This document shows, piece by piece, positions 6,653 through 61,456 of a stretch of DNA of 64,000 nucleotides. Where the stretch lies: IMG/VR virus record IMGVR_UViG_3300017991_000103, positions 1 to 64,000 of that record; one strand, 5' to 3'. The notes under the pieces were generated by a model. That model was not told the origin of the DNA. It saw nothing but the letters and a program-made list of their open reading frames with translations, and ran no database searches. Each line of letters begins with the position of its first letter. Position 1 is the stretch's first letter. The position numbers and the translations under genes were made by a program. Origin of the DNA: a virus.

Positions 6653-7108
6653 GTGACGACTTACAATACAGTCATTCTGAAAGACTATACCAATGCTCAG
6701 GATGAGCGTGATGCAGCTTCTGCTATAACACCTGGTATGTTGATTGAGTTTACTTCTGCTGATACTGTTCAGCCTCATTCAACTGCTGATGGTGCGGCGG
6801 CTAAGTTGTTTGCAATAGAAGATGCTCTTCAGGGTAATGGTATAGATGATGCTTACGCTGCCGGTGACCCTGTGCGATTCAGACAGCTTAATACCGGCGA
6901 TGAAGTGTATACACTTATTGCTGATGGTGAGAATATTGCTATTGGTGATAAGTTGGTATCCAATGGTAATGGTAGGTTGAAGGAACGCGAAGGTGCGAGC
7001 TCTGGAGAGGTGCCTGGTAGTATTATAGGTACTGCACTGGAAGCTCTTGACCTTAGGAGTTCGAGTGGTGCTGAATCAACTTACCGCTGTCGAGTTAAAA
7101 TTGACTGA
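6653..7108 (+). CDS. Head decoration-like protein
   Basis: 151 residues, acidic, beta-rich, directly before the major capsid gene, as capsid-stabilising or decoration proteins usually are. GITPGMLIEF-like and GDKLVSNGNGRL stretches resemble DUF2190/gpD-type proteins, but the match is by general character. GTG start at 6653 is preceded by GGGAGGTGA. The leader TTGAAGGGAGGTGA is repeated almost exactly before the capsid gene, suggesting matched high expression. Confidence 0.6.
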   Translation: MTTYNTVILKDYTNAQDERDAASAITPGMLIEFTSADTVQPHSTADGAAAKLFAIEDALQGNGIDDAYAAGDPVRFRQLNTGDEVYTLIADGENIAIGDKLVSNGNGRLKEREGASSGEVPGSIIGTALEALDLRSSSGAESTYRCRVKID

Positions 7109-7130
7109 TTTTGAAGGGAGGTGAAAACTA

Positions 7131-13943: not shown

Positions 13944-14618
13944 ATGAACTTATATAAGAAACGCACTGTAATCATAACTGGTGCTGGCAGAGGGTTGGGA
14001 GCTGCACTCACTCGTAAGTTTGCAAAAGAAAATTATGATATAGTATTTGTTAGTAAGAATAGTAAACCACCTGAAGATATTAGGGAAAGTATTGTTAAGG
14101 TATTTAGAGGTGATTTGAGTCACACAAGTTTTCTTAAAGATATTGTAGAAAGTTGTAGTGGTAAAATTCATGTTTTGATTAACAATGCTGGAGTAAGGCA
14201 TGTGGGCGGGCCCGGTAAGTTGGGTTTAATCCAGTTAGCGGAAATGGTTGATGTTAACTTCTTTACACCTATGTTGTTGACATATTGGCTGTGGGATACT
14301 TTAAGTAAGAACCAAGGGGTGGTGGTTAATATAAATTCTCTCTCAGCCAATATGCCGGGCCCTGGTGAGTGGGTATATAGTGCCACCAAAGCAGGATTGC
14401 AAGGAATGTCAAAAGGATTACAGTTTGATGCTACTGAACATGGGGTTAGGGTATTTAATGTTGAGTTAGGTAAGATGGCTACTGATATGGGTGGTGATAA
14501 TAAGAAGGGTGTTTTAATCGACCCAAATGAAGTAGCGTCATTCATAATTCAGCTGTGCCACTGTAATGAACCAAGTTTTAGGATACCTAGTGTAGAATTA
14601 TGTAGGAGACAGTACTAA
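13944..14618 (+). CDS. Short-chain dehydrogenase/reductase
   Basis: 224 residues with classic SDR motifs: TGAGRGLG at residues 12-19 for NAD(P) binding, NNAG near 79, serine in NINSLSAN and YSATKAG as the Tyr-Lys catalytic pair. AAGGAGGTG precedes ATG 13944, the strongest ribosome-binding site in the cargo block. It probably reduces or oxidises a sugar intermediate along with the zinc dehydrogenase. The next gene begins at its final stop (TAATG). Confidence 0.9.
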   Translation: MNLYKKRTVIITGAGRGLGAALTRKFAKENYDIVFVSKNSKPPEDIRESIVKVFRGDLSHTSFLKDIVESCSGKIHVLINNAGVRHVGGPGKLGLIQLAEMVDVNFFTPMLLTYWLWDTLSKNQGVVVNINSLSANMPGPGEWVYSATKAGLQGMSKGLQFDATEHGVRVFNVELGKMATDMGGDNKKGVLIDPNEVASFIIQLCHCNEPSFRIPSVELCRRQY

Positions 14619-17107
14619 TGAAACAAAAAGATGTATTTCATGCACCACCGCCACCACTAGTTGATATTGAGGCTCAGTGCAGAGGATTGTCTTCCATACC
14701 ATGTATATGTGGATGTAAGGAGATGAACTTAGTCGATGATATACCATCGGCTTTTCCTCTTGCAAAGTCTTTTGCAAGACACGATGTCAAGGTTGGTGAA
14801 TGTAAGAAGTGTGGTATTTTTAGAATAATAGGACCACCGTATTATAATGACGAAGAGATGGGTAAATTTTATGCAAATACATACCCACCTGTATGTAATG
14901 AATATAGTGCTAAGAACTGGAATCATGATATACAGCTTGCTGAAAAGAGGTGTGCCGAGTATGGTATACGAGAGGGAACAAATTATAGGATTCTCGATGT
15001 CGGGTCAGGGTCTGGTGCCTTTGTTGTGGAATGTCGAAGACGGGGTGCAGAGGCTTGCGGCTGTGAGTTATCGAAGTATCATTACGCCGATAGTAGTGAA
15101 GATGAATGGGTATATCGTGAGCGTTTGGAAGACATAAATTTTCCAACTGATTATTTTGATATAGTAACGTGCCATGATACTCTTGAACATGTATTAGACC
15201 CTGTTAAAATGCTTGAAGAGATGTTTAGAATAACAAAACAAAATGGGGAGTGTTTTCTAGACTTTCCTAACTATTTTGATGAAAGTGGAGGTCATCACTG
15301 GAAGCATGAGCACCTATGGTATTTTAATAGGGCCGAACTTAGAAAATTACTCAAGAAGGTAGGTTTTAAAATTGTTAATGTTTCACAACCAATTCAGTCG
15401 AAATTACTTTTTAATTGTAAGAAACCTAATCAACAGAGAGCTAGTATATTAGTTCCACCTGGTATAGGTGATTCATTCTGGTCAGTGATAAAACTTGAGG
15501 CCTTTATTGAAAAACATAAATTAGGTATTCCTGATGTATGTATTGTATGTAATAGAGATAAAGCACATGATGGTCATAAACGGTCTGTTCCATTTCTAAG
15601 AATGTTTCCTTTTATTAATTGTACTGGTAAGGTTTTTGTGAATAACGATAGTCCTAAATTAAGGAAGATATGGAAGGAAGCGTACGGGCGACCCGGTAGA
15701 ACGTGTTTTGAAGGGGTGCATGATTGCGATTACTTTATATCGTATAATGGGCACCTTAGGGTTGGAGAGAGTATGGATGAAATCGACCCTCATTTAAAGA
15801 CAAATTGGCATCCGAAAAGATTCGTATCACTTGAAGAGAGAAGGTTTAAAGAAGAGAGTGTCAAGAAGTATGGTGAATATATTGTATGGTATTTACCATT
15901 CTTTGGAACATATAAATACTGGTTGAATGAATTTCCAGTTGAAAAGGTCATTGAGTTTGTTTTATCGGTGACTGAATATACTGGATTAACACCAGTATTT
16001 ACAGGTGCAGCTTGGGATAGAGACGACAATCCGGTACTTGATTGTATTATGGACCATATACCTAATGCTGTTGATTTGCGTGGTGAAACATCAGTTGAGC
16101 AGTTATTTGGTTTAATAAATGGTAGTACTGGTGTTGTAGGTTTTCCATCGGGGCTAACCATAATGGCTGCAACCTTTGGTGTAAGAACTTTTATGATATG
16201 GAATGATTTTTATAACAGAGATTTTGCTTGGTATTGTTGTCCTCCTGAGGTCAAGAATAAGACCTATTTTATAGAGAATACTAAGAATATCCATGATGTT
16301 GCTGAGTTTTCGCAGAGAGTTTCTAATATAATATCTGGTAAAGAAGTTATTATACAAGAAACAGTTAAACCTAAGAAACCTTTAAAGGTAAAAAAGAAAA
16401 AGAAAGAGCGTGTTTCTACACAACAGACCCTTGATGTGATAAGAGAGGTTGTTAGAGATTCTAAAACTGGGATGACTGTTGCTTGTGTATTGCGCTCAGG
16501 TGGACATTTTGATATTTCATATGTGGAGAAACTTAGGAATATGTTATATAGAAATGTCACCGCAGAGTATTCAATGGTATGTTTAACAGATATTGACTTT
16601 AATCTTGATGGAGTAGATATTGTTCCTTTAAAACATGGTTATGACCGGTGGTGGTCTAAAATAGAGTTATTCAGACCAGGGGTTATCCAAACAGACAGAG
16701 TGCTTTATTTTGACCTTGATACAGTTATAATAGGTAATATAGATGATTTGTTTAAGTTAAACGGTGAATTTCTTGCACTTCAACCTTGGAATAGTAAAAA
16801 CAGAAAAAAGGGTTTTCTCGCATCAGGTATGATGCTGTGGAAACCTAAAGATTACACCTTTGTATACGCTGATTTCCATGAGGGAGTAATGTCTTCATGT
16901 CAGGCCGGTGACCAAGAATACGTATCAAAGGAACTTGCGTTACATAATAAACAGTATGTTCCTTTGCAAAATGTGGTATCTGGTATTTATTCATATAAAC
17001 GCAATTGTAGGCATGGTTTACCTAAAGATGCTAGAATAGTATGTTTTCACGGTAGACCGAGACCACATATGGTAAATGAGCAATGGGTGTTGGAGAATTG
17101 GAAATGA
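14618..17107 (+). CDS. Methyltransferase / GT9-like / GT8-like fusion protein
   Basis: 829 residues in three parts. Residues 1-260: zinc-like CICGC and CKKC pairs, then a class I SAM methyltransferase (ILDVGSGSGAFVVECRRRG, HDTLEHVLDPVKML). Residues 270-575: a GT-B-like domain opening ILVPPGIGDSFW and ending VDLRGETSVEQLFGLINGST...GFPSGLTIMAATFG, typical of GT9 heptosyltransferase-like proteins. A Lys-rich linker follows (KPKKPLKVKKKKKE). Residues 615-829: GT-A-like domain with VLYFDLDTVIIGNIDDLF, where DLD is the metal motif, similar to GT8-type enzymes. It likely builds or decorates a glycan; each domain's substrate is unknown. Confidence 0.8.
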   Translation: MKQKDVFHAPPPPLVDIEAQCRGLSSIPCICGCKEMNLVDDIPSAFPLAKSFARHDVKVGECKKCGIFRIIGPPYYNDEEMGKFYANTYPPVCNEYSAKNWNHDIQLAEKRCAEYGIREGTNYRILDVGSGSGAFVVECRRRGAEACGCELSKYHYADSSEDEWVYRERLEDINFPTDYFDIVTCHDTLEHVLDPVKMLEEMFRITKQNGECFLDFPNYFDESGGHHWKHEHLWYFNRAELRKLLKKVGFKIVNVSQPIQSKLLFNCKKPNQQRASILVPPGIGDSFWSVIKLEAFIEKHKLGIPDVCIVCNRDKAHDGHKRSVPFLRMFPFINCTGKVFVNNDSPKLRKIWKEAYGRPGRTCFEGVHDCDYFISYNGHLRVGESMDEIDPHLKTNWHPKRFVSLEERRFKEESVKKYGEYIVWYLPFFGTYKYWLNEFPVEKVIEFVLSVTEYTGLTPVFTGAAWDRDDNPVLDCIMDHIPNAVDLRGETSVEQLFGLINGSTGVVGFPSGLTIMAATFGVRTFMIWNDFYNRDFAWYCCPPEVKNKTYFIENTKNIHDVAEFSQRVSNIISGKEVIIQETVKPKKPLKVKKKKKERVSTQQTLDVIREVVRDSKTGMTVACVLRSGGHFDISYVEKLRNMLYRNVTAEYSMVCLTDIDFNLDGVDIVPLKHGYDRWWSKIELFRPGVIQTDRVLYFDLDTVIIGNIDDLFKLNGEFLALQPWNSKNRKKGFLASGMMLWKPKDYTFVYADFHEGVMSSCQAGDQEYVSKELALHNKQYVPLQNVVSGIYSYKRNCRHGLPKDARIVCFHGRPRPHMVNEQWVLENWK

Positions 17108-49168: not shown

Positions 49169-50544
49169 GGTTTATCAACCTCACAACGTTCTATTTTCAT
49201 CTCTAGTGGAACAATAATCCAACGCCATGCTTTTGGTAAATCTCCGCAACTTATTTCTCTGACTACCCTTACTACATGGTCGAGCTCTGATGGGTGAATA
49301 TCCATCAGTATAGAGTCGTGTATCTGACCAATTAACCGGCTTTTCCACTTTTCTCGTCTCATCACCTCATCAATCCTATTGAATGACCACATAAGACAAT
49401 GAAATGCGCTACCTTGAATAGGGGTATTCCCACACTGTCTTTTATCCATTAAGTCGGACACTGTGAATCCTGATAATAATTCTATATATCCTTTTTTAAT
49501 ATACTCTTCCCACCACTCGTCTTTCCATTGATTATACACCCTGAATCTTGAATTCCAGAATCTCTTTTCTATACGTTTTATATGAGTTACAAATTGCTTG
49601 TATGAACCTATTCCATTTTGTATCAACCAATCAGATAAGTGAGCATCTTCTCCAACAGATGGCATTACTATTCCTTGTCCTGATTTCCATTTAGATTGTG
49701 GTAATTTACCCCACTTGCAAGCAAGGTTGAACGCACACCCTTCATAATAATCACCATAGAATTGTGGGAACACAAAACCGTTCTTTGTAGCATCTCTAAG
49801 TCTGTCATGTTCATGGATTGATTCATCGAAGTTATTGAGTAGGTATATCTCCTGAGCCATGTCTCGGTGCATATCAGTTGTAGGGTCTTCTACGTATTGT
49901 CTCATTTTTGGGTCTTTGTGGTAACATATTGATACCCTTACTTCTATACCTGAGTAGTCAAACTCAACCAACAAGTAACCTTCTCTTGGTAAGAGACCAC
50001 CTCTCACTATTTGCATAGCAAAGTCATCTCTTTTTGGAATGTTCTGGAGATTAGGATGGTCAGAAGATGACCTGAAAGTTCTAACTAAATGAAGGTTGAA
50101 TACAGGATGAATGATGTTATTAACTTGTTCTCTTGCAAGTTGCTTTATATACGTGTCTCTAATCTTTTTCAACTTCCTAGCAGTTAATAACCACTGAAGT
50201 TCTTTTATGCCTAAGTAGGTAAGAGAATCATCATCGGTTGCTCCTTGACCACCCATTTTAGTTCTCTTAGGTGGTTTCAACTTCTTTTTCTTATATAAAT
50301 AATACGAGAGTTGTTGACTTGAGTATATGTTAAATTTAACTTTCTTTATTGAAGACTTCCAATTTTTAACAAATTCACTTTTATGTAATCTTTTCTCGAG
50401 TTTCTTTATTCTTTTAGTAAGCCGTTCTTCTTGCTCCTTGAAATATTCAGTATCTATTCTAACTCCTTGCATTTCTGCTCTTGCAAGAGCTTGAGCACCG
50501 TCATGGAATAATTGGTATGCCTCTAATGTATTTGCTTTCACCAT
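49138..50544 (-). CDS. DNA polymerase, family A (polymerase domain only)
   Basis: 468 residues. Motif A LLVEFDYSGIEVRVSICY, an O-helix-like RLRDATKNGFVFPQFYG, and motif C IGQIHDSILMDI. The catalytic Asp in motifs A and C are present; the usual Glu after HD is Ser. The K-to-Y spacing of the O-helix seems one residue longer than in E. coli Pol I. No 3'-5' exonuclease domain precedes it; one is fused to a uracil-DNA glycosylase at 51305. Overlaps the PAPS-reductase-like gene start by one base. Confidence 0.88.
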   Translation of the reverse strand: MVKANTLEAYQLFHDGAQALARAEMQGVRIDTEYFKEQEERLTKRIKKLEKRLHKSEFVKNWKSSIKKVKFNIYSSQQLSYYLYKKKKLKPPKRTKMGGQGATDDDSLTYLGIKELQWLLTARKLKKIRDTYIKQLAREQVNNIIHPVFNLHLVRTFRSSSDHPNLQNIPKRDDFAMQIVRGGLLPREGYLLVEFDYSGIEVRVSICYHKDPKMRQYVEDPTTDMHRDMAQEIYLLNNFDESIHEHDRLRDATKNGFVFPQFYGDYYEGCAFNLACKWGKLPQSKWKSGQGIVMPSVGEDAHLSDWLIQNGIGSYKQFVTHIKRIEKRFWNSRFRVYNQWKDEWWEEYIKKGYIELLSGFTVSDLMDKRQCGNTPIQGSAFHCLMWSFNRIDEVMRREKWKSRLIGQIHDSILMDIHPSELDHVVRVVREISCGDLPKAWRWIIVPLEMKIERCEVDKPWSEKEALVA

Positions 50545-51308
50545 TATAGTATCCTTTTAAGTTTAAACATCCCATCTATGTATGGGTCACCTTTTATATC
50601 ACTTGTATGCAACCACCATCTGAAGAGCTCTTCACCCGAATCCCATTTATTAAGTAGTTTGCCTTTTTTCTTTCGGTGTTCATAAAGTTTAATAAACGCT
50701 TTAATAAAGGCTTTCTCAAACTTTGGGTAAGTTTGAGCGTGTAAAATTCTTTCCCTTCGTGTCGCATTTGGACAAAATAAACATCCTATACGGTGCCACT
50801 CACCATTATATAGGGAACAATAAGGTATATTTTCTTTTATTATGTACCTCCACACATCTTCAGATGACCAATCAAGTATTGGATTTATTATGGTGCATTT
50901 ATCGTTCGTTCTGCTTTTTTCATATACCTTTCTACTTTTTCTATTCACTGATTCCTCATGTCGCAAACCCATCAGTAGTGAACCGTCAGGTTTAAACGAT
51001 TCTTTGAATTCTGCGCAACACCATCTCTGATGTCTAAGAGGTGGAAACCCATGATAAAACAATCTTTTAAGAAAGGGTACCTTTGGTCTCATCCAAGTAA
51101 TATCACTATGATATTTACGCATAAAGTATATAACTTCTGGTGGGTCTATTGTTGTAACATTATAGAATGGAATGTATTTAACCTTTGCTCTATCTGCAAG
51201 GTGGCGCATGACAATACTATCTTTTCCACCTGAGAATGCAAGCCAATAACCTTCATCAGGTTCAAACTCTTTTAGTATCTCTATTGACCTTTTTATAAAG
51301 TGCCTCAT
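50544..51308 (-). CDS. PAPS reductase-family protein
   Basis: 254 residues from ATG 51308 (ATGA overlap; a TTG start at 51326 would add six). WLAFSGGKDSIVMRHL near 22-37 is the PP-loop, RHQRWCCAEFK near 90-100 and IGCLFCPNATRRER near 174-187 supply CC and CxxC. This matches CysH-type PAPS reductase/sulfurtransferase-like phage proteins; DndC-like DNA phosphorothioation cannot be excluded. It sits between the polymerase and the UDG-exonuclease genes. Substrate unknown. Confidence 0.75.
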   Translation of the reverse strand: MRHFIKRSIEILKEFEPDEGYWLAFSGGKDSIVMRHLADRAKVKYIPFYNVTTIDPPEVIYFMRKYHSDITWMRPKVPFLKRLFYHGFPPLRHQRWCCAEFKESFKPDGSLLMGLRHEESVNRKSRKVYEKSRTNDKCTIINPILDWSSEDVWRYIIKENIPYCSLYNGEWHRIGCLFCPNATRRERILHAQTYPKFEKAFIKAFIKLYEHRKKKGKLLNKWDSGEELFRWWLHTSDIKGDPYIDGMFKLKRIL

Positions 51309-52570
51309 TCTATCCAACTTTCGCAACCTATTTCTTCCATTTGTTGTAGTGCTAACTTATATTCAAATAAACTATCAAGACCACAATACTTCAGAGCCTC
51401 TTCCTTTCGGCCCATTTCATACACATACTTCTCGAGTTTATTAAACGCATTTGCATTGGCAGACCCTGATGTTAAATACCGTTCTATCTCACTAGCGTAA
51501 TCAACCACTCCGAAATGCACATATGCTTGGAACTTCAAACTGGTTATACCGCTCCTATTGTCGATAATATGTGCGGCTTGCATAGTGTCCCATACCCAGT
51601 TTTGAACTTCAGTCTTAAGTTTCACCTTACTCCATATGTGCTCGAACTTTAAATTCGCTGCTCCCTTACCTATATTCTCATTTGTCAACAACCTTAGGAA
51701 TGGTTTTCTAGCTCTAGGTGTATTAGGCATTTCAAATGCGAAGGCCTTGTCTGGTGCAACTCCGACAGATGCTAGTAGTATCTTATGACCTTTAGCATGT
51801 GGTTTCAATCCGGTACATTCATAATCAAAGGTTATAAATTTTACTTTGTTTTCAAAGGAAGATAGTATAGATAAGTCCTCTATTATTTCCACCTGGTCCC
51901 GTTCATTTGGAAATGATGGAAAGGGTGCTTTTATAAACTTCAAAGCATTTCGTAAGTCTTTGAGCCATATAGTTTCTACAATACCTTCATTATCTCTTTC
52001 AACAAAACTTGGATGATATGTAGGGCATACCCAAGCATGAAAGTCCCTATCTGGTATATTCCACCCTCTCCATACTGATATTTTGTCTGCTTTGCCTTTT
52101 GCACCTGCAGTTAAGCCTCTCGTCCATCTGTGACCTAAAAAGGACTGAACTGCTGAGCCACCTAGGAGAAGTATTAATCTAGGTTTGTTTTGGTCAATGA
52201 CTTTTAGTACCCTCTTTCTGCAACAAGCTATTTCCATATCTGTAGGCTTTCTATTTCTTCCCTTTTCGTCTATTGGCCTACAGTTTATTGAGTTAATATT
52301 TAGACAATCTTTAAATAAGTCAATTCCCATAGAACTTAAGGTGCGTTTCAACCTTCTTCCTACTTTACCTTGCCACTGCTTTCCATTACGGTCTTCTGTC
52401 TCACCAGGAGCCTCACCTATAATAAGTATTTTCTTTTTGAATTTACCAAACGGCTCCATACGCGGGCTTAAGACATTCTTATATAAACCGCATGAGACAC
52501 AAGTATGCTTCGTGCTTGTGCCTAATCTATTCTTAACCTGGTCTCGGTCAAAGAAACTTTTCATAGCCAT
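51305..52570 (-). CDS. Uracil-DNA glycosylase (family 4) fused to 3'-5' exonuclease
   Basis: 421 residues from ATG 52570 (AGGAT upstream, overlapping no other gene). N-terminal family 4 UDG: CVSCGLYKN, IIGEAPGETEDRNGKQWQG near 48-66, NSINCRPIDEKGRNRKP and CPTYHPSF, with the cysteines that ligate an iron-sulfur cluster. C-terminal DnaQ/Pol I-type exonuclease: FITFDYECTGLKPHAKGHKI with D-x-E, AANLKFEHIW and KYCGLDSLFEYKL. SPO1-type polymerases carry UDG, exonuclease and polymerase in one chain; here the polymerase is a separate gene. Confidence 0.85.
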   Translation of the reverse strand: MAMKSFFDRDQVKNRLGTSTKHTCVSCGLYKNVLSPRMEPFGKFKKKILIIGEAPGETEDRNGKQWQGKVGRRLKRTLSSMGIDLFKDCLNINSINCRPIDEKGRNRKPTDMEIACCRKRVLKVIDQNKPRLILLLGGSAVQSFLGHRWTRGLTAGAKGKADKISVWRGWNIPDRDFHAWVCPTYHPSFVERDNEGIVETIWLKDLRNALKFIKAPFPSFPNERDQVEIIEDLSILSSFENKVKFITFDYECTGLKPHAKGHKILLASVGVAPDKAFAFEMPNTPRARKPFLRLLTNENIGKGAANLKFEHIWSKVKLKTEVQNWVWDTMQAAHIIDNRSGITSLKFQAYVHFGVVDYASEIERYLTSGSANANAFNKLEKYVYEMGRKEEALKYCGLDSLFEYKLALQQMEEIGCESWIE

Positions 52571-53606: not shown

Positions 53607-54230
53607 CTACTTTTTGAATCCAGGTTCATCCCACATATCAAAAATAAAAATGTTTTTCTCGTCAAAACTATCTTTGCTTGTTATGGCTGGCATTACCATA
53701 ATGAATGGGTCTAGTATACGTGTCACCTCTGAAACAAAAAACATAACATCTCTCCCAAAGTTATCAATTATTTGTTCTACTTTGCGTAGAGTTTCTATCG
53801 GTATGGGTTTATCATATGGAGTTGGGTCATCCCACGAGGAGAAATGGTGGAATAATAGTGTTTTATTACCAAATAGTTGAGTTTCAATATTTCTGAGTGG
53901 CCACCAAATCCAAGTTCTACCAGGGCCGGCCTTCTTTTCAAGCCATCGGTCTACTGTAGTGTAATCATATAACTCTATTTTATTTTTAATAAAGAACGTA
54001 GATAGTCTTGAGGCTATTTCATCAGCCTTTATAATTTCTCTAGTTATTCTCGTAGGTTCATGACTTATACCAATACGTGTTGCAATTTCTTCGTAGTTTT
54101 TAAGAGTTCGCTGTGCAGTCTCAACTTGGGTTTCAACCTTTATACCTTTTTCTGTAACTACTATTTGAGCATCCATCGGTACTGGTTTTTCTACGGTTAC
54201 TTTCTTTCTTAACAGTGTGGTGAGTAGCAT
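53607..54230 (-). CDS. Hypothetical replication-region protein
   Basis: 207 residues from ATG 54230 (AAAGGAGG upstream; ATG 54251 is weaker). A mid-part AGPGRTWIWWPLRNIETQLFGNKTLLFHHFSSWDDPTPYD and a C-terminal FFVSEVTRILDPFIMVMPAI are not linked by me to a family. It lies upstream of the clamp gene and overlaps the preceding small gene by 98 bases, which raises doubt about that gene's end. Confidence 0.55.
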   Translation of the reverse strand: MLLTTLLRKKVTVEKPVPMDAQIVVTEKGIKVETQVETAQRTLKNYEEIATRIGISHEPTRITREIIKADEIASRLSTFFIKNKIELYDYTTVDRWLEKKAGPGRTWIWWPLRNIETQLFGNKTLLFHHFSSWDDPTPYDKPIPIETLRKVEQIIDNFGRDVMFFVSEVTRILDPFIMVMPAITSKDSFDEKNIFIFDMWDEPGFKK

Positions 54231-54396
54231 CTTCCTGCCTCCTTTTCTCATTCCCTATAGTGTTGAATACTTGGTCTGATTGCATCTCTTTATGTATTAT
54301 CCAAAAGTAGCTTAACAGCCTTCTAGGAATGTCAAGCATACCTCTTTCTCTAGGAACCTCGTTGCATGGACCCGTGTCCGCTAGATATATCTTCAT
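54133..54396 (-). CDS. Small MKIYLA-type protein
   Basis: 87 residues. MKIYLADTGPCNEVPRERGM, then RRLLSYFWIIHKE resembles the product of 54350-54550 (MKIYLA, RLLSFYH). The first 45 residues look like the first strand and helix of TGT/DpdA-like barrels; the rest is basic and overlaps the next gene by 98 bases, so the real end may be shorter in function. Role unknown. Confidence 0.5.
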   Translation of the reverse strand: MKIYLADTGPCNEVPRERGMLDIPRRLLSYFWIIHKEMQSDQVFNTIGNEKRRQEDATHHTVKKESNRRKTSTDGCSNSSYRKRYKG

Positions 54397-54550
54397 CTTT
54401 TGGGTTTCTCCCAGTCCTTATGTATTTTTTAAACTGTTCCTTCCTTTCAGCAGTGTGATAGAAACTTAGAAGTCGATGTCTACATTTAGCATTGGTCAGA
54501 GCATTCCCCTGCTCTGGCTCGAACAGCCACGTTGCTAAGTATATTTTCAT
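54350..54550 (-). CDS. Small MKIYLA-type protein
   Basis: 66 residues. MKIYLATWLFEPEQGNALTN, then HRLLSFYHTAERKEQFKKYIRTGRNPKDED. It shares the opening with 54133-54396, so the pair may be duplicates. AAGGGTTATG lies before ATG 54550. It overlaps neighbours on both sides by 47-65 bases. Some phage TGT-like proteins begin in a similar way; the link is inference. Confidence 0.55.
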   Translation of the reverse strand: MKIYLATWLFEPEQGNALTNAKCRHRLLSFYHTAERKEQFKKYIRTGRNPKDEDISSGHGSMQRGS

Positions 54551-55067
54551 TGAACATAACCCTTAACCTTTCACTCATTGGGAGAGTTACTTCGTCGAGT
54601 ATACCAACAGGAACTGTATATAAATCTTTATAGATTAGAGTAGCAGGATTAACCCTTATACACAATCTATTCTTGTTACCTGTTGATTCTCTCATGTGCC
54701 ATCCGTATGTTTTTACAAGGTCGCGAACCAAGCATGGTCCAGCATACTTGTGTCTAAGTATACCATCTGGCCTGTAAACAAACAGCATCCAGTACTCACC
54801 AAAGGATTCGATGGCACTTTCCACATCTTCCATCTCACATTGCCTTAGTTTAATATAGACCTGACTATCATTTGAGAATCGGATGAAACCGAACCACTTC
54901 CTTTTTCTCTTGTTGTTAACAAAAGCATAGTCAAGTCCACGCTCTTTTGGCCACTCAAGTCTTAGTTCTGAATGAACAGATTTAAGATATGTATTTACAT
55001 AATTTGCTACTTGTCTCCTATCTTCCTTTCCCTTTTCAAAGTCTCTGAACTTCTTAAAAGATGGCAT
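54486..55067 (-). CDS. Hypothetical protein downstream of dpdA-like gene
   Basis: 193 residues from ATG 55067 (AAAAAGGAGGC upstream; 55088 also possible). MPSFKKFRDFEKGKEDRRQV, then WFGFIRFSNDSQVYIKLRQC near 63, and AGPCLVRDLVKTYGWHMREST. Basic, alpha/beta, not recognised. Overlap with the dpdA-like gene suggests co-expression and perhaps a role in DNA modification. Confidence 0.5.
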   Translation of the reverse strand: MPSFKKFRDFEKGKEDRRQVANYVNTYLKSVHSELRLEWPKERGLDYAFVNNKRKRKWFGFIRFSNDSQVYIKLRQCEMEDVESAIESFGEYWMLFVYRPDGILRHKYAGPCLVRDLVKTYGWHMRESTGNKNRLCIRVNPATLIYKDLYTVPVGILDEVTLPMSERLRVMFNENILSNVAVRARAGECSDQC

Positions 55068-55992
55068 TGGTTGTGCCTCCTTTTTCAAATGGCCAAGGCC
55101 ATTTCCTGAAAGACTTTTCCAAATCTACAAAATACAGTATGTTCAACTCATCTCTCAACTGGTATCGGTTACTCACCCCCTCTTCTTCTATTATTTCAAG
55201 TTTCCTTTTCTGGTCTGGGTCTGCTGGTCTCTTTTCAGCCCACCTCTCATTTTGTCTCACAGTATGGGTCTGCTTAACCTTTTTGAACCGCGACGCACCC
55301 ACTTTATAACCTTTACTATGTATATAGTCTATTATGATGTCTCTTTGTCTTGGGGTGAAAGTGCTTATATGTTTACCAGCTTCCTTAGTATTAGGGCTTT
55401 GACTTGACACACATACAGACCATGACCGTTCATCATAAACCCACCCACCATTTTTATATCTAGGAACAAGGATAGTGCCCATTCTTGAACTCATAACCCA
55501 GGTAGTTGAATCGACAGAATACCATGGGTATCTTAACATAAGTTTTAGACCGGTCAATCCGAAACCATGAACTTTGGTCTTAGGCATTCTATCGGGGGTA
55601 TCACATATTACATTGAAGCATCGGTCTAAAAACATCATTCTGGTCTTAGGTGTGAAACCTCTTGCCATCCCACCTAAGCAGAAGTATGGGTATTCCAAAC
55701 ATCTATCCAAATACTTTCTTCCCTTACTAGTTTTTTCATCACTTAGATGGTATACTGGTAACGGATTAAGACCAGCTTTCTCCATTATCCTTTGGTTGCG
55801 CCAGGTAGCCTTTGCATCACCTATGACATCAAGATTTGCATACACATCTATGATGTCCTCATGCTTTTTTATAAATGCTATGTAATCGTCTATATCAATT
55901 TTAGTGTCTTGAGTCCAAGCTGAGAATGCTCCTGAATCTAGGAATAAGTCAACCATTCTTTGTTTATTTTTTCTCTTGCTCTTTTTGGTCAT
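55054..55992 (-). CDS. dpdA: DpdA-like 7-deazaguanine DNA transglycosylase
   Basis: 312 residues from ATG 55992 (GAGG six bases upstream). After a basic start, LFLDSGAFSAWTQDTKIDID near 15-35, VYANLDVIGDAKATWRNQRIM near 50-70, FCLGGMARGF near 104, KVHGFGLTGLKLMLRYPWYSVDSTTW near 138-163. These are blocks of TGT-like barrels in phage DpdA proteins, which exchange guanine in DNA for preQ0. Other DpdA/TGT proteins begin with MKIYLA-like sequence, absent here. The linked folE, queC, queE and queD genes support the call. About 150 bp of AT-rich sequence without a gene separates it from folE. Confidence 0.72.
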   Translation of the reverse strand: MTKKSKRKNKQRMVDLFLDSGAFSAWTQDTKIDIDDYIAFIKKHEDIIDVYANLDVIGDAKATWRNQRIMEKAGLNPLPVYHLSDEKTSKGRKYLDRCLEYPYFCLGGMARGFTPKTRMMFLDRCFNVICDTPDRMPKTKVHGFGLTGLKLMLRYPWYSVDSTTWVMSSRMGTILVPRYKNGGWVYDERSWSVCVSSQSPNTKEAGKHISTFTPRQRDIIIDYIHSKGYKVGASRFKKVKQTHTVRQNERWAEKRPADPDQKRKLEIIEEEGVSNRYQLRDELNILYFVDLEKSFRKWPWPFEKGGTTNAIF

Positions 55993-56143
55993 ACGCATCC
56001 TCACTTTATATTTAGGATAGGAATCATATAGAAGATATATAACTCTTTTCTTACCTATGATTACCTCTCAGCTATATTTGAACTTCATATATTTTTGCTG
56101 ATTAGGAGATAATATAGATACTGTTACTCTATCGTAATCTACG

Positions 56144-57001
56144 TCACTTTATTGGTGCCGTACAGAGTGTTATAAATTCATCCCTTACTTTGTGCTCAGT
56201 TAGGAATATACCTTTCATAGAAGAGTACACCATTGTGGAGTCTCTTTTAACACCTCTGCAGCCCATACACATGTGCTTTCCTATTGTAATACATCCACAT
56301 CCTTTTGGTCTAAAATACTTCATCATTGCATTAGTTACTTGTTCTCCTATGCGCTCTTGCATTTGTAATCGCCGTGCGAAAGCATCGAGTAACCTGATTA
56401 TCTTACTTGCACCAAGAACAGGACCATCTGGAATATATCCTATATGGGCAACACCGCTGAATGGTAGCATATGATGTTCACAGGTGGAGAAGAATTCTAT
56501 GTCCCTTTTTATCACAAGACCTTCATATTTCTCTTCGTCTTCGAACTCCTTGAATATAGATTCAATGTCTGCACCATAGCCGGCATAAATCTCTTTAAAC
56601 GATTCTACAATTCTTTTCGGGGTTTCTTGCAAGCCTTTACGCATTGGGTTATCACCAATATGTTCTATTATCCGAACTATATTATCGTGCACTCCTTCTT
56701 CAGATGCAGGATGTTCGGCTTCCCACGGGAATACAAGCCATGGGTCTTTAGGTGTTTTACTATACAGTGAGATAAACGGTGCTGTGTACTTTTCTTGATA
56801 AAACTGCCTGGTTCGACCAGTATACTCAACATCGTCGAGTATTAAATCCGCATCAGCAGGATTCATGGTTGCAACTGCATTTTTCAGGAATGCAGTAAGT
56901 ATCATTCCATTTTTTGGAACACCATATATGTGATACCCTATTATATCAACAGATTCGAGTTTTGAAAGAACCACGTCCCAACTGATATACTTTTTAAACA
57001 T
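56144..57001 (-). CDS. folE: GTP cyclohydrolase I with N-terminal PRTase-like domain
   Basis: 285 residues. Residues 1-100 resemble a phosphoribosyltransferase: IYGVPKNGMI and ADLILDDVEYTGRTRQFYQ, the DDxxxTGxT ribose-phosphate loop. Residues 103-285 are FolE: NPMRKGLQETPKRI, FFSTCEHHMLPFSGVAHIGY, QMQERIGEQVTNAM and MCMGCRGVKRDSTMV, with the zinc Cys and His residues present. FolE makes dihydroneopterin triphosphate for QueD. The fused domain might capture a base or act on a nucleotide. AAGGAG precedes ATG 57001. Confidence 0.85.
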   Translation of the reverse strand: MFKKYISWDVVLSKLESVDIIGYHIYGVPKNGMILTAFLKNAVATMNPADADLILDDVEYTGRTRQFYQEKYTAPFISLYSKTPKDPWLVFPWEAEHPASEEGVHDNIVRIIEHIGDNPMRKGLQETPKRIVESFKEIYAGYGADIESIFKEFEDEEKYEGLVIKRDIEFFSTCEHHMLPFSGVAHIGYIPDGPVLGASKIIRLLDAFARRLQMQERIGEQVTNAMMKYFRPKGCGCITIGKHMCMGCRGVKRDSTMVYSSMKGIFLTEHKVRDEFITLCTAPIK

Positions 57002-57012
57002 GAACTTTCTCC

Positions 57013-57660
57013 TTATTTGAAGTGTATTTTTGACGGGTCTACCATATCATACCATATTTTTATTGCATCATCTGGTAGCATGAATTCGGGTGCAAGTAGA
57101 TTTTGTAACATATCTACTGAATTTTCGGGTTCGATGATAAATCGTGGGGATAGTAATACTGTATGTCTTTTAAAACTTGCACTAAGCATACCGTAACAGA
57201 ATAATCTGCTAAGTTCAATTTGACCTGGAGATTGTTTTAACAAATCGCAATCTGTTTCAAAGTGAGGGTGCCTTAACTCTTTGGAGGCAACAATATCCTT
57301 TGTATCTCTCCAAAGTATTATAAACTTATCTTCGCGGTCACCTCTTTCCTCAAGCCAGATTCGAAGTATAGAGGGGTGCATTAATAGATAAGAGAATTTT
57401 ATAATCCTATCCTTTTCACTCCCGAGTGACTCCAATGGCTCGAATCGTTCTCTAGGTTCTATCATATCCCAGTAATTGGAAAATGGGAAATCAGGAATTT
57501 CCAAAGCCTCTCTGTAGTATGCACAGACATCTGGATTCTCATATCCGCCATCCACCTCGTCGTGCCAGAATTTGGTTCCTAAATCGAAGCCGCATTTAAC
57601 AAAAAAGGAAGCCAAGAAACTAGTCCCCGACCTTTGAGCACCTGTTATTACAGCTAACAT
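57013..57660 (-). CDS. Sulfotransferase-like protein in the deazaguanine cluster
   Basis: 215 residues. LAVITGAQRSGTSFLASFF at residues 2-20 is a sulfotransferase-type P-loop, and FIILWRDTKDIVASKELRHP near 113-132 resembles the 3'-phosphate-binding segment. It is similar in design to 17104-17829 but lies between queC and folE. It may act on an unrelated glycan or on a modified base; nothing in the sequence decides. AGGAGAG precedes ATG 57660. Confidence 0.65.
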   Translation of the reverse strand: MLAVITGAQRSGTSFLASFFVKCGFDLGTKFWHDEVDGGYENPDVCAYYREALEIPDFPFSNYWDMIEPRERFEPLESLGSEKDRIIKFSYLLMHPSILRIWLEERGDREDKFIILWRDTKDIVASKELRHPHFETDCDLLKQSPGQIELSRLFCYGMLSASFKRHTVLLSPRFIIEPENSVDMLQNLLAPEFMLPDDAIKIWYDMVDPSKIHFK

Positions 57661-57669
57661 AGTTCTCTC

Positions 57670-58356
57670 CTATTCGTAATCTATTGGGTCTTTTACACCT
57701 GCTATTTCAAAAGCTTCTAACCTCTCGACACAACTTCCGCACTTACCACACGCTTTATCTCTCCCATTGTAACAAGTTGTAGTAAGAGCGAAAGGCACCT
57801 TCATTGCTAAACCCCACTGAATTATTTCATGCTTTGTCATATTCATAAGTGGGGCTTCTATTTGCACTTTACCTTCAGTAGCATAATACATTACAATATT
57901 CATGGCTGCAACATATTCAGGTCTGCAGTCTGGATAGATTGCATGGTCACCCTCATGTGCACCAAATAATATTGTTGGTGCACCAACGGTTTCTGCTTTA
58001 CCCATTAGCATACTTAGGAATATAGTATTTCTAGCAGGCACCACTGTCGACTTCATTTTAGCATCTGTATAATGTCCTTCAGGAATTTGTTTTGGACTTC
58101 TTTTTAGCAGACTTGTTGCTGTTGCAAACTGTGAGACAACCCCTCGCACGTCAAAAAAATCTAGGGATAAATGGTTCTCATAATCCCTATAGTAATATAC
58201 TAGACGCATTGAAGCATTGTATTCGACATCATTGTGTCGAGACCCATAGTGGAAGAAACAGCACCAAATATCAGCACCCTGCTCGAGTAGATACCCGAGC
58301 AGGGTTGCCGAATCGGTGCCACCAGACAATGCTAACACTGCTTTAGTCTGTGGCAT
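57670..58356 (-). CDS. queC: 7-cyano-7-deazaguanine synthase QueC
   Basis: 228 residues, normal length. VLALSGGTDSATLLGYLLEQG near 7-27 is the PP-loop, PARNTIFLSMLMGKAE near 107-122 and YNGRDKACGKCGSCVERLEAF near 196-216 contain the zinc-binding cysteines of QueC. It converts carboxy-deazaguanine to preQ0. Motifs for substrate binding (GAHEGDHAIYPDCRPEY) are present. GGAGAC precedes ATG 58356. A perfect inverted repeat lies near its start codon. Confidence 0.92.
   Translation of the reverse strand: MPQTKAVLALSGGTDSATLLGYLLEQGADIWCCFFHYGSRHNDVEYNASMRLVYYYRDYENHLSLDFFDVRGVVSQFATATSLLKRSPKQIPEGHYTDAKMKSTVVPARNTIFLSMLMGKAETVGAPTILFGAHEGDHAIYPDCRPEYVAAMNIVMYYATEGKVQIEAPLMNMTKHEIIQWGLAMKVPFALTTTCYNGRDKACGKCGSCVERLEAFEIAGVKDPIDYE
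58277..58304. repeat. Inverted repeat near the start of queC
   Basis: CCCTGCTCG (58277-58285) and CGAGCAGGG (58296-58304) pair around a 10-nt loop, about 52 bases after the queC start on its mRNA. There is no T run. It may slow translation or bind a protein; it may equally follow from the two LLGYLLEQG-like codon runs. Seen directly; function unknown. Confidence 0.4.
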
Positions 58357-58368
58357 ATGTATGTCTCC

Positions 58369-59400
58369 TTACTTCTTGCTCTTCTTGCCTTTCTTTTCCT
58401 TCTTGCTCTTCTTACCTTTCTTTTCCTTCTTGGTCTTGTCTTCCTTTTTCTCTTTCTTTTCCTTTTTTGCAGGCTTTTCATCTGCGCCCTGCTGTTTTGC
58501 TATGGCAGGAAGAGCATTGCCTTTCTCCCACTGTTTTATCCAGCTGGATATGGTGGCCTCTTTGACAGCACCTTTAATCTTCTTGTGAAGTTTCTTCACT
58601 TTGGTTTCGCCATCTTTCCATGCCTTCCATACCTGTGCTTTGTTGGATTTGCTGTGGTCAACCGGCTTGCTGGGTTTCTTCGGTTTGGGTTTCAACTCTT
58701 CTTCAGGAACACCGAGTTTGATGAGCATCGCCCTCTTCAATTCCTTCGGGCCGTGCAATCCCTGGTAACTTTTCAATTTCTTTTTCAGGGATTTGAGCTC
58801 ATCGTTTTCCTTGACGATGTCTTTGAGGTCAGCGAGTTTTGAGGTATCGCGAACGAGGTCTATAAGGCTCTTTTCTTCTTCCTCGTCTTCCTCGTCCTCT
58901 TCTTCTTCTTCTTCTTCTTCTTCTTCGTCCTCTTCTTCGTCTTCGTCTTCCTCGTCCTCTTCTTCGTCTTCGTCTTCCTCGTCCTCTTCTTCGTCTTCGT
59001 CTTCCTCGTCCTCTTCCTCGTCCTCTTCTTCTTCCTCTTCCTCGTCTTCCTCGTCCTCGTCTTCCTCGTCCTCTTCTTCTTCTTCTTCGTCTTCTTCTTC
59101 TTCTTCTTCGTCCTCGTCTTCCTCTTCCTCGTCCTCTTCGAGTTCCTCGTCTTCAGGTTCTTCTTCATCGTCGACGAGTCCCTCTTCCTCTCTTATTTGG
59201 TCGAGAATCTTCTGAGTCTTTTTGGTGAATTCGTCCTCTTCAGAAATCACCTCAGTGAGAGCCTCAACAATACCTGCTCTCATAGTCTTCATGTTTTTGG
59301 TTGAGATTCCCTTTTCGCCAGTTTCCTCGTTAACCAGCCCGAGAGTCTTGTTGAGTTCCTTTGCGACCTTTTCCAGGTCAGATTTGCTAATACGTGCCAT
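58369..59400 (-). CDS. Alternative internal start giving the acidic half alone
   Basis: ATG 59400 in the same frame has GAAGGAGAATTGAAG before it, a complete ribosome-binding site, and starts MARISKSDLEKVAKEL, a natural protein beginning. The 343-residue product would have the acidic tract and Lys-rich end only. Either two genes have fused by loss of a stop codon, or two proteins are made from one frame. Confidence 0.5.
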   Translation of the reverse strand: MARISKSDLEKVAKELNKTLGLVNEETGEKGISTKNMKTMRAGIVEALTEVISEEDEFTKKTQKILDQIREEEGLVDDEEEPEDEELEEDEEEEDEDEEEEEEDEEEEEEDEEDEDEEDEEEEEEEDEEEDEEDEDEEEDEEDEDEEEDEEDEDEEEDEEEEEEEEEEDEEDEEEEKSLIDLVRDTSKLADLKDIVKENDELKSLKKKLKSYQGLHGPKELKRAMLIKLGVPEEELKPKPKKPSKPVDHSKSNKAQVWKAWKDGETKVKKLHKKIKGAVKEATISSWIKQWEKGNALPAIAKQQGADEKPAKKEKKEKKEDKTKKEKKGKKSKKEKKGKKSKK

Positions 59401-59871
59401 CTTCAATTCTCCTTCAGTTTGTTTACTTCTTCTGATTAGTTGGTACACACTCTGTGTTTCTGGATTACCGAGAACAACGGAGCCGTATTCATTTGCAAGA
59501 CCGAACCCCCTCAAGGTTCCCATATGCTCACTCCTTAATATCTCTTCATATATTGTTCTCAATAATCGGTCGCGACTGTTAGGTACCTTACTCAATTTCC
59601 TTTTCATTTGGGTAATAAGTCGCGTCCACTTTGCTTTGGCACCACCCCCTTTACGCTTATCTCCTTGTTGAAGTTCTCTCTTTTCTATTTCACGCCTTTC
59701 ATACTGAGCCAACTTAATAATGGTCTTGAGGGAACCTACATATAATTTCTTCAACGCAGGATACGACCAATATTGAAAGTCAGCACGGCGACTTAATAGA
59801 TGGGAAGTGAGTAGACGTGCATCTGTCGGGAATCTTTCTCCGTCCACCGCCCAATTCTTACGGCGTCTCAC
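58369..59871 (-). CDS. Large acidic protein with helical N-domain and Lys-rich end
   Basis: 500 residues from GTG 59871 (AGAGAGGTGG upstream; GTG 59880 would sit about seven bases after the predicted transcription start). Residues 1-155: helical basic domain (VYQLIRRSKQ, NSRDRLLRTIYEEI). Then MARISKSDLEKVAKELNKTL, an acidic tract of about 100 Glu/Asp, a helical part (SNKAQVWKAWKDGETKVKKL, ISSWIKQWEKG) and a Lys tail (KKEKKGKKSKK). Role unknown; it could bind DNA or basic host proteins. Confidence 0.6.
   Translation of the reverse strand: MRRRKNWAVDGERFPTDARLLTSHLLSRRADFQYWSYPALKKLYVGSLKTIIKLAQYERREIEKRELQQGDKRKGGGAKAKWTRLITQMKRKLSKVPNSRDRLLRTIYEEILRSEHMGTLRGFGLANEYGSVVLGNPETQSVYQLIRRSKQTEGELKMARISKSDLEKVAKELNKTLGLVNEETGEKGISTKNMKTMRAGIVEALTEVISEEDEFTKKTQKILDQIREEEGLVDDEEEPEDEELEEDEEEEDEDEEEEEEDEEEEEEDEEDEDEEDEEEEEEEDEEEDEEDEDEEEDEEDEDEEEDEEDEDEEEDEEEEEEEEEEDEEDEEEEKSLIDLVRDTSKLADLKDIVKENDELKSLKKKLKSYQGLHGPKELKRAMLIKLGVPEEELKPKPKKPSKPVDHSKSNKAQVWKAWKDGETKVKKLHKKIKGAVKEATISSWIKQWEKGNALPAIAKQQGADEKPAKKEKKEKKEDKTKKEKKGKKSKKEKKGKKSKK
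58927..59007 (-). repeat. 27-bp tandem repeat in the acidic tract
   Basis: Three perfect consecutive copies of a 27-bp unit start at 58927, 58954 and 58981, with a partial fourth from 59008; each unit encodes nine Asp/Glu residues. Exact copies mean recent expansion, so tract length is likely variable between relatives. Confidence 0.8.
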
Positions 59872-59893
59872 TTCAACCACCTCTCTTTCATAT

Positions 59894-59918
59894 ATTATAT
59901 TGTGGATTATTAGTTTGC
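59894..59918 (-). promoter_or_regulatory. Early promoter, GCAAAC-N13-TATAAT class
   Basis: On the - strand GCAAAC (59913-59918), 13 bp, TATAAT (59894-59899), with the CACAA element shared with the promoter at 60615. Transcription would begin near 59887, only about 16 bases before GTG 59871. It lies right after queE and drives the acidic-protein gene. Confidence 0.7.
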
Positions 59919-59919
59919 G

Positions 59920-60582
59920 TTAAGGCATCCCAATTAGCTTATGAATTTGGAGTGAGAATATTATACGGTTTGTATACTCATACATTCGCGTTTTAAGCCA
60001 ATCAATTAATGAACCGTTTGCTCCGACTGGGCTGACTATGAAATCTTCTGAGTATCCGCAATCAGTAAGTTGTTTCATTACTTTAAGTGCTTCATCAGCA
60101 TCCGCTCTACAGGCTATAACAAATTTAACTTTAACATATGGATACATACATAACATACCACGCCACGTGGGTTCAAAAGCCTTATTGAGTTCTGTATGCA
60201 CTTTTGGGTGTTCTGATGACCAGCACTTATAATCAACAACCCAGTAGTTGTTATACATCTCAGGGGGAATTAGTATGGAACCGTTGGTTTCTATTTGTAC
60301 TTCATGACCATTTTCCCACAGTGCATCAGTAAGTGTTTTAATACTTTTTCCTTGAAGTAATGGTTCACCCCCAGTTAATATAACTTTAACTGTATTGCAC
60401 ATTCGCAATACATGGTCGACGTGCATTACAGTACCTTCACTTGGGTCTTGTGACTTTTTAGTATCACACCATGCACATTTTAGATTGCAACCTTGGAATC
60501 GAATAAATGTGCACCAAGACCCTTGTGGAAAGAAACCGGCCTCACCACAAATAGACTCGAATATCTCATTTACTCTAATCAT
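59920..60582 (-). CDS. queE: 7-carboxy-7-deazaguanine synthase QueE
   Basis: 220 residues. FESICGEAGFFPQGSWCTFIRF near 8-29, FQGCNLKCAWCDTKKSQ near 29-45 as the radical SAM CxxxCxxC, ILTGGEPLLQG near 68-78, and IETNGS near 97 are all typical. It converts carboxy-tetrahydropterin, made by QueD, to carboxy-deazaguanine. GGGGGTAAG precedes ATG 60582; a promoter lies 33-57 bases upstream. Confidence 0.92.
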   Translation of the reverse strand: MIRVNEIFESICGEAGFFPQGSWCTFIRFQGCNLKCAWCDTKKSQDPSEGTVMHVDHVLRMCNTVKVILTGGEPLLQGKSIKTLTDALWENGHEVQIETNGSILIPPEMYNNYWVVDYKCWSSEHPKVHTELNKAFEPTWRGMLCMYPYVKVKFVIACRADADEALKVMKQLTDCGYSEDFIVSPVGANGSLIDWLKTRMYEYTNRIIFSLQIHKLIGMP

Positions 60583-60614
60583 ATCACTTACCCCCTTTCT
60601 TTTTCATTTATTAT

Positions 60615-60639
60615 ATTATATTGTGAAACCTCTGTTTGC
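60615..60639 (-). promoter_or_regulatory. Early promoter, GCAAAC-N13-TATAAT class
   Basis: On the - strand GCAAAC (60634-60639), 13 bp, TATAAT (60615-60620), followed by a second overlapping TATAAT. Predicted start near 60607, about 25 bases before ATG 60582 of queE. Confidence 0.7.
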
Positions 60640-60653
60640 GTGAAGGCTTAACT

Positions 60654-60998
60654 TTAAAGCAATCCTTTGATACATTCGAGTAAATATAACCTTGGTGCCA
60701 CAAGTACCTTAATGAGTTGTACTAACTGAATAACACCAATAGAAAATGGGATTGACGCTAGTAAACTAAGAAACACGCATCCAACTATCTTATCATCAGT
60801 ATCATATCGCGGCTCTTTCCACACCCGGTATATAAAATATAACGCGACAGCTACTAGGGACATTGTTAACCCAATGAAGAATAAGTGCCGAACTGCACCG
60901 TAATGTAGAATCTCTCTTGCAAGTGCTGGCAATTCACCTTTTAAGAATATGGTTCCCTCATTTACTGTTTCTAAAAGTTTCTCAAGTTGCTCTTCCAT
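60654..60998 (-). CDS. Two-helix membrane protein between queE and queD
   Basis: 114 residues. Two transmembrane helices: LFFIGLTMSLVAVALYFIYRV near 39-59 and IVGCVFLSLLASIPFSIGVI near 71-90, with a helical N-terminus (EEQLEKLLETVNEG). Possible holin or membrane accessory, unrecognised. GGGAGGTACAC precedes ATG 60998. Confidence 0.55.
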   Translation of the reverse strand: MEEQLEKLLETVNEGTIFLKGELPALAREILHYGAVRHLFFIGLTMSLVAVALYFIYRVWKEPRYDTDDKIVGCVFLSLLASIPFSIGVIQLVQLIKVLVAPRLYLLECIKGLL

Positions 60999-61012
60999 TG
61001 TGTACCTCCCTT

Positions 61013-61456
61013 TTAGTTATTTCCCCTAAGTGATTTTGTATAACTCGCATATGAAGTTGGAGTTTCATACACTGTTACCCTTTTTAATGTTGCAAGAGGT
61101 GCATAGCCAGTAAAATACACTTCCAACCCACCTAATATCAGTTGATAAAGTATATATGCTAGGTTCTCTGCAGTTGGATTCTCTGTTCTCCAATCGTCGA
61201 TACCATCTTCGGTTTCGATTGAAAGACTTGAATCCTGAAGAACTGTATTTAGCACCGAATGGTCTAAGCAATCAATGAGTGGCCCGACCACCTCTTTTAT
61301 AAACCCAAAGTCTATCAACATTCCATGCCGTGATAGTAACATTCCCTCAAAAGTAACCAGAACGCGATAGGTATGCCCGTGCATCTGCCCGCAAGTCTCA
61401 TGACCTGGGAGGTAATGAGCTGCATCAAAAATGAACTCTTTAGTTACCTCAAACAT
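61013..61456 (-). CDS. queD: 6-carboxytetrahydropterin synthase QueD
   Basis: 147 residues. FDAAHYLPGHETCGQMHGHTY near 10-30 gives the zinc histidines and the catalytic cysteine, DFGFIKEVVGPLIDCLDHSVLN near 49-70 the Asp-His pair, and PTAENLAYILYQ near 99 the glutamate. It turns FolE's product into carboxy-tetrahydropterin for QueE. A sigma70-like promoter precedes it. AAAGGAAG precedes ATG 61456. Confidence 0.92.
   Translation of the reverse strand: MFEVTKEFIFDAAHYLPGHETCGQMHGHTYRVLVTFEGMLLSRHGMLIDFGFIKEVVGPLIDCLDHSVLNTVLQDSSLSIETEDGIDDWRTENPTAENLAYILYQLILGGLEVYFTGYAPLATLKRVTVYETPTSYASYTKSLRGNN

Follow-up and report, generated by a model that had tools for sequence, protein, structure and literature searches.

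Phage 9g and its relatives (Queuovirinae) carry dG+/dPreQ0 cassettes. Further phage 7-deazaguanines were reportedly described in a NAR study of 2023. In the 9g block the polymerase, the sliding clamp, DpdA, FolE and the other preQ0 genes stand together, and DpdA is one chain that includes its N-terminal part. The viral record IMGVR_UViG_3300017991_000103 (69,478 bases; an uncultivated phage), of which a stretch of 64,000 bases (hereafter the window) was analysed, contains a block of the same kind, in which FolE, QueD, QueE and QueC are predicted to make preQ0 from guanosine triphosphate (GTP) and a DpdA would put this base in place of guanine in the viral DNA, probably as a shield from host restriction. 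The DpdA-like core is 33% identical to 9g DpdA, but here DpdA appears to be split. The open reading frame (ORF) for the core is without the first quarter of the barrel (strand 1, helix 1 and strand 2), and two small neighbouring ORFs encode modules that resemble this quarter. On balance we favour a split DpdA barrel that receives its first quarter in trans, from alternative modules of which many would be phase-variable.

An initial annotation of this DNA, made from the sequence alone, had taken the gene set and its order to be the new feature. That expectation was not supported, because the 9g block already holds polymerase, clamp, DpdA, FolE, QueD, Gat-QueC and QueE. The preQ0 pathway and its neighbourhood are thus of a known kind, and the novelty is the split DpdA with its small N-terminal modules. 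The absent N-terminal part of the core and the small ORFs at 54133-54550 that encode such a part had been overlooked.

Results and Discussion

The DpdA Core ORF

The most plausible start of the DpdA-like ORF is the ATG at 55992, with GAGG 6 nucleotides (nt) upstream, and no N-terminal piece was found in frame upstream of it. The AlphaFold model of the product had a predicted local distance difference test score (pLDDT) of 87.4 and aligned to the Zymomonas mobilis TGT from residue 85 onward (Z 12.3); the score against human TGT was Z 12.7. A structure-based search of the 55054-55992 product, as the initial annotation had proposed, returned TGT-family chains for all 50 listed PDB matches (Z 11.8 to 12.7). 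The match to phrog_887, the profile of phage 'queuine tRNA-ribosyltransferases', started at profile position 50 for the window core and at position 10 for the relative L002. A relative in which the N-terminal part is fused to the core (L038) aligned from its first residue with TGT residue 40 and with residue 4 of 7ui4, its best PDB match (Z 15.0, root-mean-square deviation 3.5, 243 residues), which by its title we take to be the crystal structure of the DNA preQ0 insertase DpdA. The N-terminal part was present in the same chain as the core in 9g DpdA and in 13 of the 14 named-phage DpdAs fetched, the exception being that of the cultured Edwardsiella phage vB_EpM_ZHS (ZHS). In TGT-family barrels the quarter formed by strand 1, helix 1 and strand 2 borders the substrate pocket.

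The histidine at position 196 of 9g DpdA was invariant in an alignment of seven sequences that included the window core. According to PMC6884629, this histidine is conserved in DpdA and absent in DpdA2. The tRNA-type TGT family PF01702 gave no match in the record, nor at E ≤ 0.1 in the Pfam scan of the window, and matched 14 of 14 control genomes; the product is DpdA-like and not of the tRNA-type family. No match to PDB sequences was obtained with the DpdA alignment at E ≤ 1. The fold matches, the kept histidine and the silence of PF01702 are all in agreement with the claim that preQ0 synthesis and a DpdA-type insertase are encoded together, and we infer that the modified base would be located in DNA.

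The Two Modules of the Window

The scores of the two small ORFs in Table 1 were obtained with a hidden Markov model (HMM) from which the window had been left out, in a search of 1,213 ORFs in which the runner-up scored 0.0068 and the best reversed decoy 0.27. Both modules are in frame, begin with MKIYLA and carry RLLS(F/Y), in the second strand, about 20 residues further on, resembling the N-termini of fused relatives. A counterpart of the 'PGNE'-like module was recognised by eye at 9261-9485 of L001. Searches of 50,697 phage records by tblastn with both modules gave no match at E ≤ 1. The 193-residue protein encoded between the core and the modules has relatives in L101 (6e-19) and, weakly, in L027 (4e-05).

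The Module Family in Related Loci

Relatives were collected from 51 viral loci, from a wider profile (the best 80 of 534 relatives) and from 18 genome-bin loci; after removal of 47 duplicates or near-identical contigs and of 4 named-phage loci, the 155 sequences gave 104 non-redundant loci, the window counted. Modules were defined by a pattern match, without reference to repeats, and fused copies were counted among them. The pattern matched 209 times on the dpdA strand and twice on the opposite strand; 204 of the 209 sense-strand matches were near a core and the remaining five lay away from any core. Modules, fused or standalone, were found beside dpdA in 77 of the 104 loci, with one to six per locus. 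The module profile matched 28 of the 29 whole records searched, from which the model had partly been built.

Profile-profile comparison of 33 standalone modules with the N-termini of 13 named-phage DpdAs, an alignment that excluded ZHS, gave a probability of 84.6 and an E-value of 6.8e-6, good evidence from sequence comparison that modules and DpdA N-termini are homologous. The starts of the modules recall nucleoside deoxyribosyltransferases, an assignment unsupported by a Pfam scan of the 33 modules, in which no family matched more than one member (best 0.018). The proportion of nonsynonymous differences (pN) was below that of synonymous differences (pS) in all 139 module pairs compared (median 0.305 vs 0.823), the pairs having been preselected for at least 45% identity, which lowers pN; the modules are under purifying selection.

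Counts that depend on the start of the core refer to the 99 loci in which the core match reaches its start (5 were skipped). The core stands without an extension, with fewer than 35 residues ahead of strand 3, in 45 of them, 53 are N-extended and one runs off its contig. An in-frame standalone module accompanies the core in 32 of the 45 core-only loci, and standalone modules are additionally present in 35 of the 53 N-extended ones; by the pattern, modules are fused in frame in 19 loci. A motif resembling a Shine-Dalgarno sequence precedes the core ATG in 32 of the 56 loci where no in-frame module was recognised (a class that retains some fused loci escaping the pattern, such as L018 and L021), in 7 of 11 with an out-of-frame module and in 5 of 16 fused loci; before internal ATGs the figure is 55 of 686. 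Where a module lies downstream (66 loci), its start overlaps the core stop by exactly 4 nt in 35 cases, an arrangement that would suit partners produced in a fixed ratio. The 'ATW' type, to which one module of the window belongs, was found in 45 copies in 41 loci; 44 of the copies are downstream of the core, 42 are in frame and 3 out of frame. Both states were seen for the 'NTPD' type, which stands alone in L001 and L010 and is part of a fused DpdA in L016. Among 15 fused sequences (105 pairs), mean identity was 27.3% in the module and 49.9% in the core that follows it; such higher variability of the module would fit a first quarter that sets specificity.

Repeats and Reading Frames

Strong repeats, defined as two-base runs (AG, GA, TA, AT, etc.) of at least 10 nt or runs of at least seven G or C, occurred at 2.91 per kb in modules and at 0.035 per kb elsewhere in the 104 loci. 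The enrichment was found in the first 47 loci (3.96 vs 0.032 per kb) and again in the 57 fetched later (1.81 vs 0.038 per kb). Synonymous resampling of codons in 90 in-frame modules from the first set (2,000 runs) gave 1.23 strong repeats on average and never more than 6, whereas 23 were observed; four pattern matches judged false (two in the window away from dpdA, one in L010 and one in L031) had been left out of this set.

In 168 of the 204 modules near a core the reading frame is intact. The other 36 have a frame change between the start and the RLLSY motif or, in two cases, a stop codon there, and in 22 of them a strong repeat lies between the two halves. Both frame offsets were found, 16 of one and 6 of the other, and the shifts occur at AG, G and TA repeats. 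A deletion of 29 nt inside a module (about 7091-7146) distinguishes L020 from L034, two contigs that are 98-99% identical. Repeat-bearing loci include L001, L010, L023, L031 and L087, and genome-bin loci have strong repeats as well (3 of 17).

Among the 14 named-phage loci, only that of ZHS has a tract of at least 10 nt, L004, L006 and L161 having one 8-nt tract each. The ZHS tract, (AG)6, is the sole one in 13,041 bases and lies in the 5' part of dpdA, ahead of the annotated start, where the frame of the gene remains open (L165 6104-6230); this part has no clear MKIYLA or RLLSY. By eye, two products encoded downstream of ZHS dpdA (ZHS_62 and ZHS_63) resemble modules; they were not counted because the module profile has no match in ZHS at E ≤ 1.

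The simplest reading of the repeats together with the out-of-frame states appears to be phase variation by slippage. In the mechanism that we propose, the large ORF would give barrel strands 3 to 8, including the catalytic residues, and the small ORFs the absent first quarter; the core and one module would assemble in trans, non-covalently, into a single barrel. Depending on the module, the holoenzyme would then differ in activity or in the DNA context on which it acts. In a fair number of relatives, slippage at (AG)n or G-tract repeats would move modules in or out of frame, presumably reversibly, and the active module set could therefore vary within a virus population. More tentatively, the system as a whole may be a viral split TIM barrel, in which an invariant core is joined by competing quarter-barrel modules, many of them switched by slippage, to give a shifting mixture of specificities against restriction; we give this wider picture somewhat less than even credence.

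Alternative Explanations

Several observations weigh against a split and switched enzyme. No module of any kind was found in 27 of the 104 loci, and 13 of the 45 core-only loci are without an in-frame standalone module by the pattern. In the AlphaFold model of L038 the fused module (residues 5-49) has a pLDDT below 50, so that the N-terminal piece is placed with low confidence in that relative. A strong module repeat occurs in only 23 of the 104 loci and in neither module of the window. Strong repeats are missing from 14 of the 36 out-of-frame modules (two of these 14 being the stop codon cases), and some of the repeat-less ones resemble chance pattern matches. Near-identical contig pairs, few of which carry long repeats, showed no length change in module repeats, and the data are nearly all metagenome assemblies.

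The modules might instead form a store of cassettes, one of which recombination would place before the core to give a fused DpdA of new specificity, much as in hsdS shuffling; the standalone copies need not act as proteins. The divergence of fused modules relative to their cores fits such a store, as do the occurrence of the 'NTPD' type in both states and the standalone copies kept in 35 of 53 N-extended loci. It is made unlikely by the starts, stops and purifying selection that standalone modules retain, by their frequent 4-nt overlap with the core stop, by the nearly constant downstream and in-frame position of the 'ATW' type, and by the start signal that the core has of its own. A second, quite unlikely reading takes the core for a whole, minimal DpdA and the modules for regulators, or for small proteins with some other function, that merely resemble the DpdA N-terminus. 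The 13 core-only loci mentioned above and the well-folded core model, judged by its pLDDT, speak for a minimal enzyme, but the lack of strands 1 and 2 would leave a TGT-type barrel open, the named-phage DpdAs fetched, other than that of ZHS, have the N-terminal part in the same chain, and modules do occur fused in frame.

A similarly small chance is given to the out-of-frame modules being assembly errors or decaying pseudogenes, with no phase variation. The constancy of repeat length between near-identical contigs, together with 7 of the 22 shifts of the first set that fall outside repeats, would be accounted for in this way, but not the excess of repeats over the synonymous-codon null, their presence in genome-bin loci and in the dpdA of a cultured phage, or the fact that both halves of a module are still recognisable past the shift. 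Programmed ribosomal frameshifting at the repeats, in place of mutation, might be suggested by the recurrence of shifts at AGAGAG codons; with both offsets represented, at AG, G and TA repeats alike, and 168 of 204 modules in frame, this seems very improbable. Action on tRNA rather than DNA, for which the annotation 'queuine tRNA-ribosyltransferase' carried by relatives could be cited, appears extremely improbable given the absence of a match to the Pfam TGT family, DpdA 7ui4 as the top fold match of the fused relative, and the position of the gene beside clamp and polymerase, as in 9g.

Block Layout and preQ0 Synthesis Genes

The plus strand of the window carries tailed-phage head and tail genes (terminase, portal, tape measure and tail fibre J), and the minus strand the replication genes. 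The block is transcribed in the order QueD, membrane protein, QueE, acidic protein, QueC, sulfotransferase-like protein, FolE, DpdA-like protein, 193-residue protein and the two small ORFs (Table 1), followed by one further ORF and then by the sliding clamp and polymerase pieces. The description of these genes as one unit is supported in the sense of a co-directional block that takes in the replication genes. A 24 kb megablast against named phages gave no match, and a FolE probe of viral contigs retrieved no relative.

Table 1. Features of the 7-deazaguanine block of the window, in order of transcription.
Feature	Position	Strand	Match or remark
QueD, 6-carboxytetrahydropterin synthase	61013..61456	-	PF01242 7.3e-30; phrog_2389 2.3e-24
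Small membrane protein (hydrophobic by eye)	60654..60998	-	phrog_3054 (unknown function) 2.8e-07
QueE, radical SAM 7-carboxy-7-deazaguanine synthase	59920..60582	-	phrog_2076 1e-39; PF04055 1.3e-09
Acidic low-complexity protein	58369..59880	-	no family match
QueC, preQ0 synthase	57670..58356	-	TIGR00364 164.8 bits (cut-off 150.3); PF06508 3.1e-54
Sulfotransferase-like P-loop protein	57013..57660	-	PF13469 E 0.098, 13.3 bits vs cut-off 27
FolE with N-terminal extension	56144..57001	-	PF01227 1.3e-57 at residues 107-280
DpdA core, barrel strands 3-8, beginning just ahead of the DSGA strand	55054..55992	-	phrog_887 5.1e-49
193-residue protein between core and modules (longer TTG start used in the profile searches)	54486..55067	-	no family match
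Standalone N-terminal DpdA module, 'ATW' type (strand 1, helix 1, strand 2)	54350..54550	-	HMM 5.2e-14
Standalone N-terminal DpdA module, 'PGNE'-like	54133..54396	-	HMM 9.9e-13

The four preQ0 enzymes are all present as complete ORFs on the minus strand, at the places first given for them and with supporting profile matches. QueD and QueE are under NCBIfam cut-offs and have strong Pfam or PHROG matches: the TIGR03367 score of QueD was 83.3 bits, slightly below the cut-off of 89.25, and no NCBIfam model was over its cut-off for QueE among the matches listed (25 of 48). No amidotransferase (Gat) domain was found by Pfam in QueC (228 residues), whereas 9g has a Gat-QueC according to PMC6884629. 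QueF, which like Gat-QueC would mark a G+ or preQ1 branch, was not found in the record, which may be incomplete, the sole trace being a sub-cut-off match (E 0.003) within FolE. Hutinet et al. (PMC6884629) give a gene-content rule that links the genes of a cassette to the base made; with neither Gat nor QueF, dPreQ0 is expected by this rule and is the likely modified base as far as gene content can tell. Near dpdA, FolE was found in 87 of the 104 loci, QueE in 66, QueD in 62 and QueC in 62, in loci that end at contig ends or flank limits.

Additional Genes

The acidic, membrane and sulfotransferase-like genes noted in the initial annotation are all present, the last with a sub-threshold Pfam match alone; the block of 9g, unlike that of the window, has no sulfotransferase or module genes annotated. 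No relative of the membrane protein was found in the other 103 loci (tblastn, E ≤ 1e-4). In three near-identical contig pairs (L021/L022, L025/L026 and L143/L146), in-frame length differences of 3, 30 and 27 nt were located in tracts coding for Glu and Asp, apparently of the acidic protein gene.

By eye, the 57013-57660 product may carry a PAPS sulfotransferase motif. By tblastn at E ≤ 1e-4 the protein was found in 3 of the 104 loci (the window, L002 and L017), and no match was obtained in named phages at E ≤ 0.01. The L002 homologue (43% identity; PF13469 0.033, below threshold) lies likewise between QueC and FolE. In L001 a methyltransferase-like ORF (5038-5724; PF13489 7.8e-05, below cut-off), which has a relative in L020, adjoins QueC. 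The gene position beside QueC may be a slot for further base modification (hypermodification).

The extension of FolE (about residues 1-98) looks phosphoribosyltransferase-like by eye (GVPKNG loop, LILDDVEYTGRT) and gave no Pfam match at E ≤ 0.1. Matches to it were found in 18 of the 104 loci, the window counted, and in named phages too; FolE was matched over at least 80% of its length by 33 of 379 phage records. The extension might recycle the guanine released by DpdA. The FolE of L001 has an additional HAD-like domain ahead of the extension, by sub-cut-off Pfam matches. Elsewhere in the window, a PAPS-reductase/DndC-like PP-loop protein (50544-51326; phrog_424 2.6e-32) is encoded between two polymerase-related ORFs, and a protein of 829 residues with methyltransferase-like (about 121-257) and glycosyltransferase-like (619-828) parts is encoded among the virion genes (14618-17107).

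Comparison with Known Systems

No publication joining DpdA with a split TIM barrel was found, nor, among the matches listed, one joining dpdA or 7-deazaguanine with phase variation, in searches whose coverage left most subscription literature outside. A haloarchaeal virus phase variation system is cited in PMC8651126 in the reference list only. If the proposed mechanism is true, the ORFs of 50-90 residues beside dpdA, at present without a family, would have a role, and these loci would combine a natural combinatorial TIM barrel with a viral epigenome switched by simple sequence repeats (SSR).

On a current view, TIM barrels arose by growth from smaller beta-alpha units, and engineered fragments have been the main test of this view. 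Engineered half- and quarter-barrels of TIM-barrel proteins have been studied as separate chains, reportedly in work on HisF among others. The split described here would differ in being natural and in having fragments that occur in several variants, and a natural barrel with an exchangeable gene for its first quarter would make the idea of growth by beta-alpha units directly testable. The DpdA of 7ui4 has the same fold as the fused relative L038, whereas the window core is without the first quarter, which is placed on separate ORFs.

In bacteria, phase-variable DNA methyltransferases and hsdS shuffling combine repeat tracts, out-of-frame alleles and an exchangeable specificity part. Phage DNA modification diversified by exchangeable parts and slippage would be the counterpart of these methyltransferases, with the difference that the system is viral and that the part switched would be the TIM-barrel quarter of a base exchanger.

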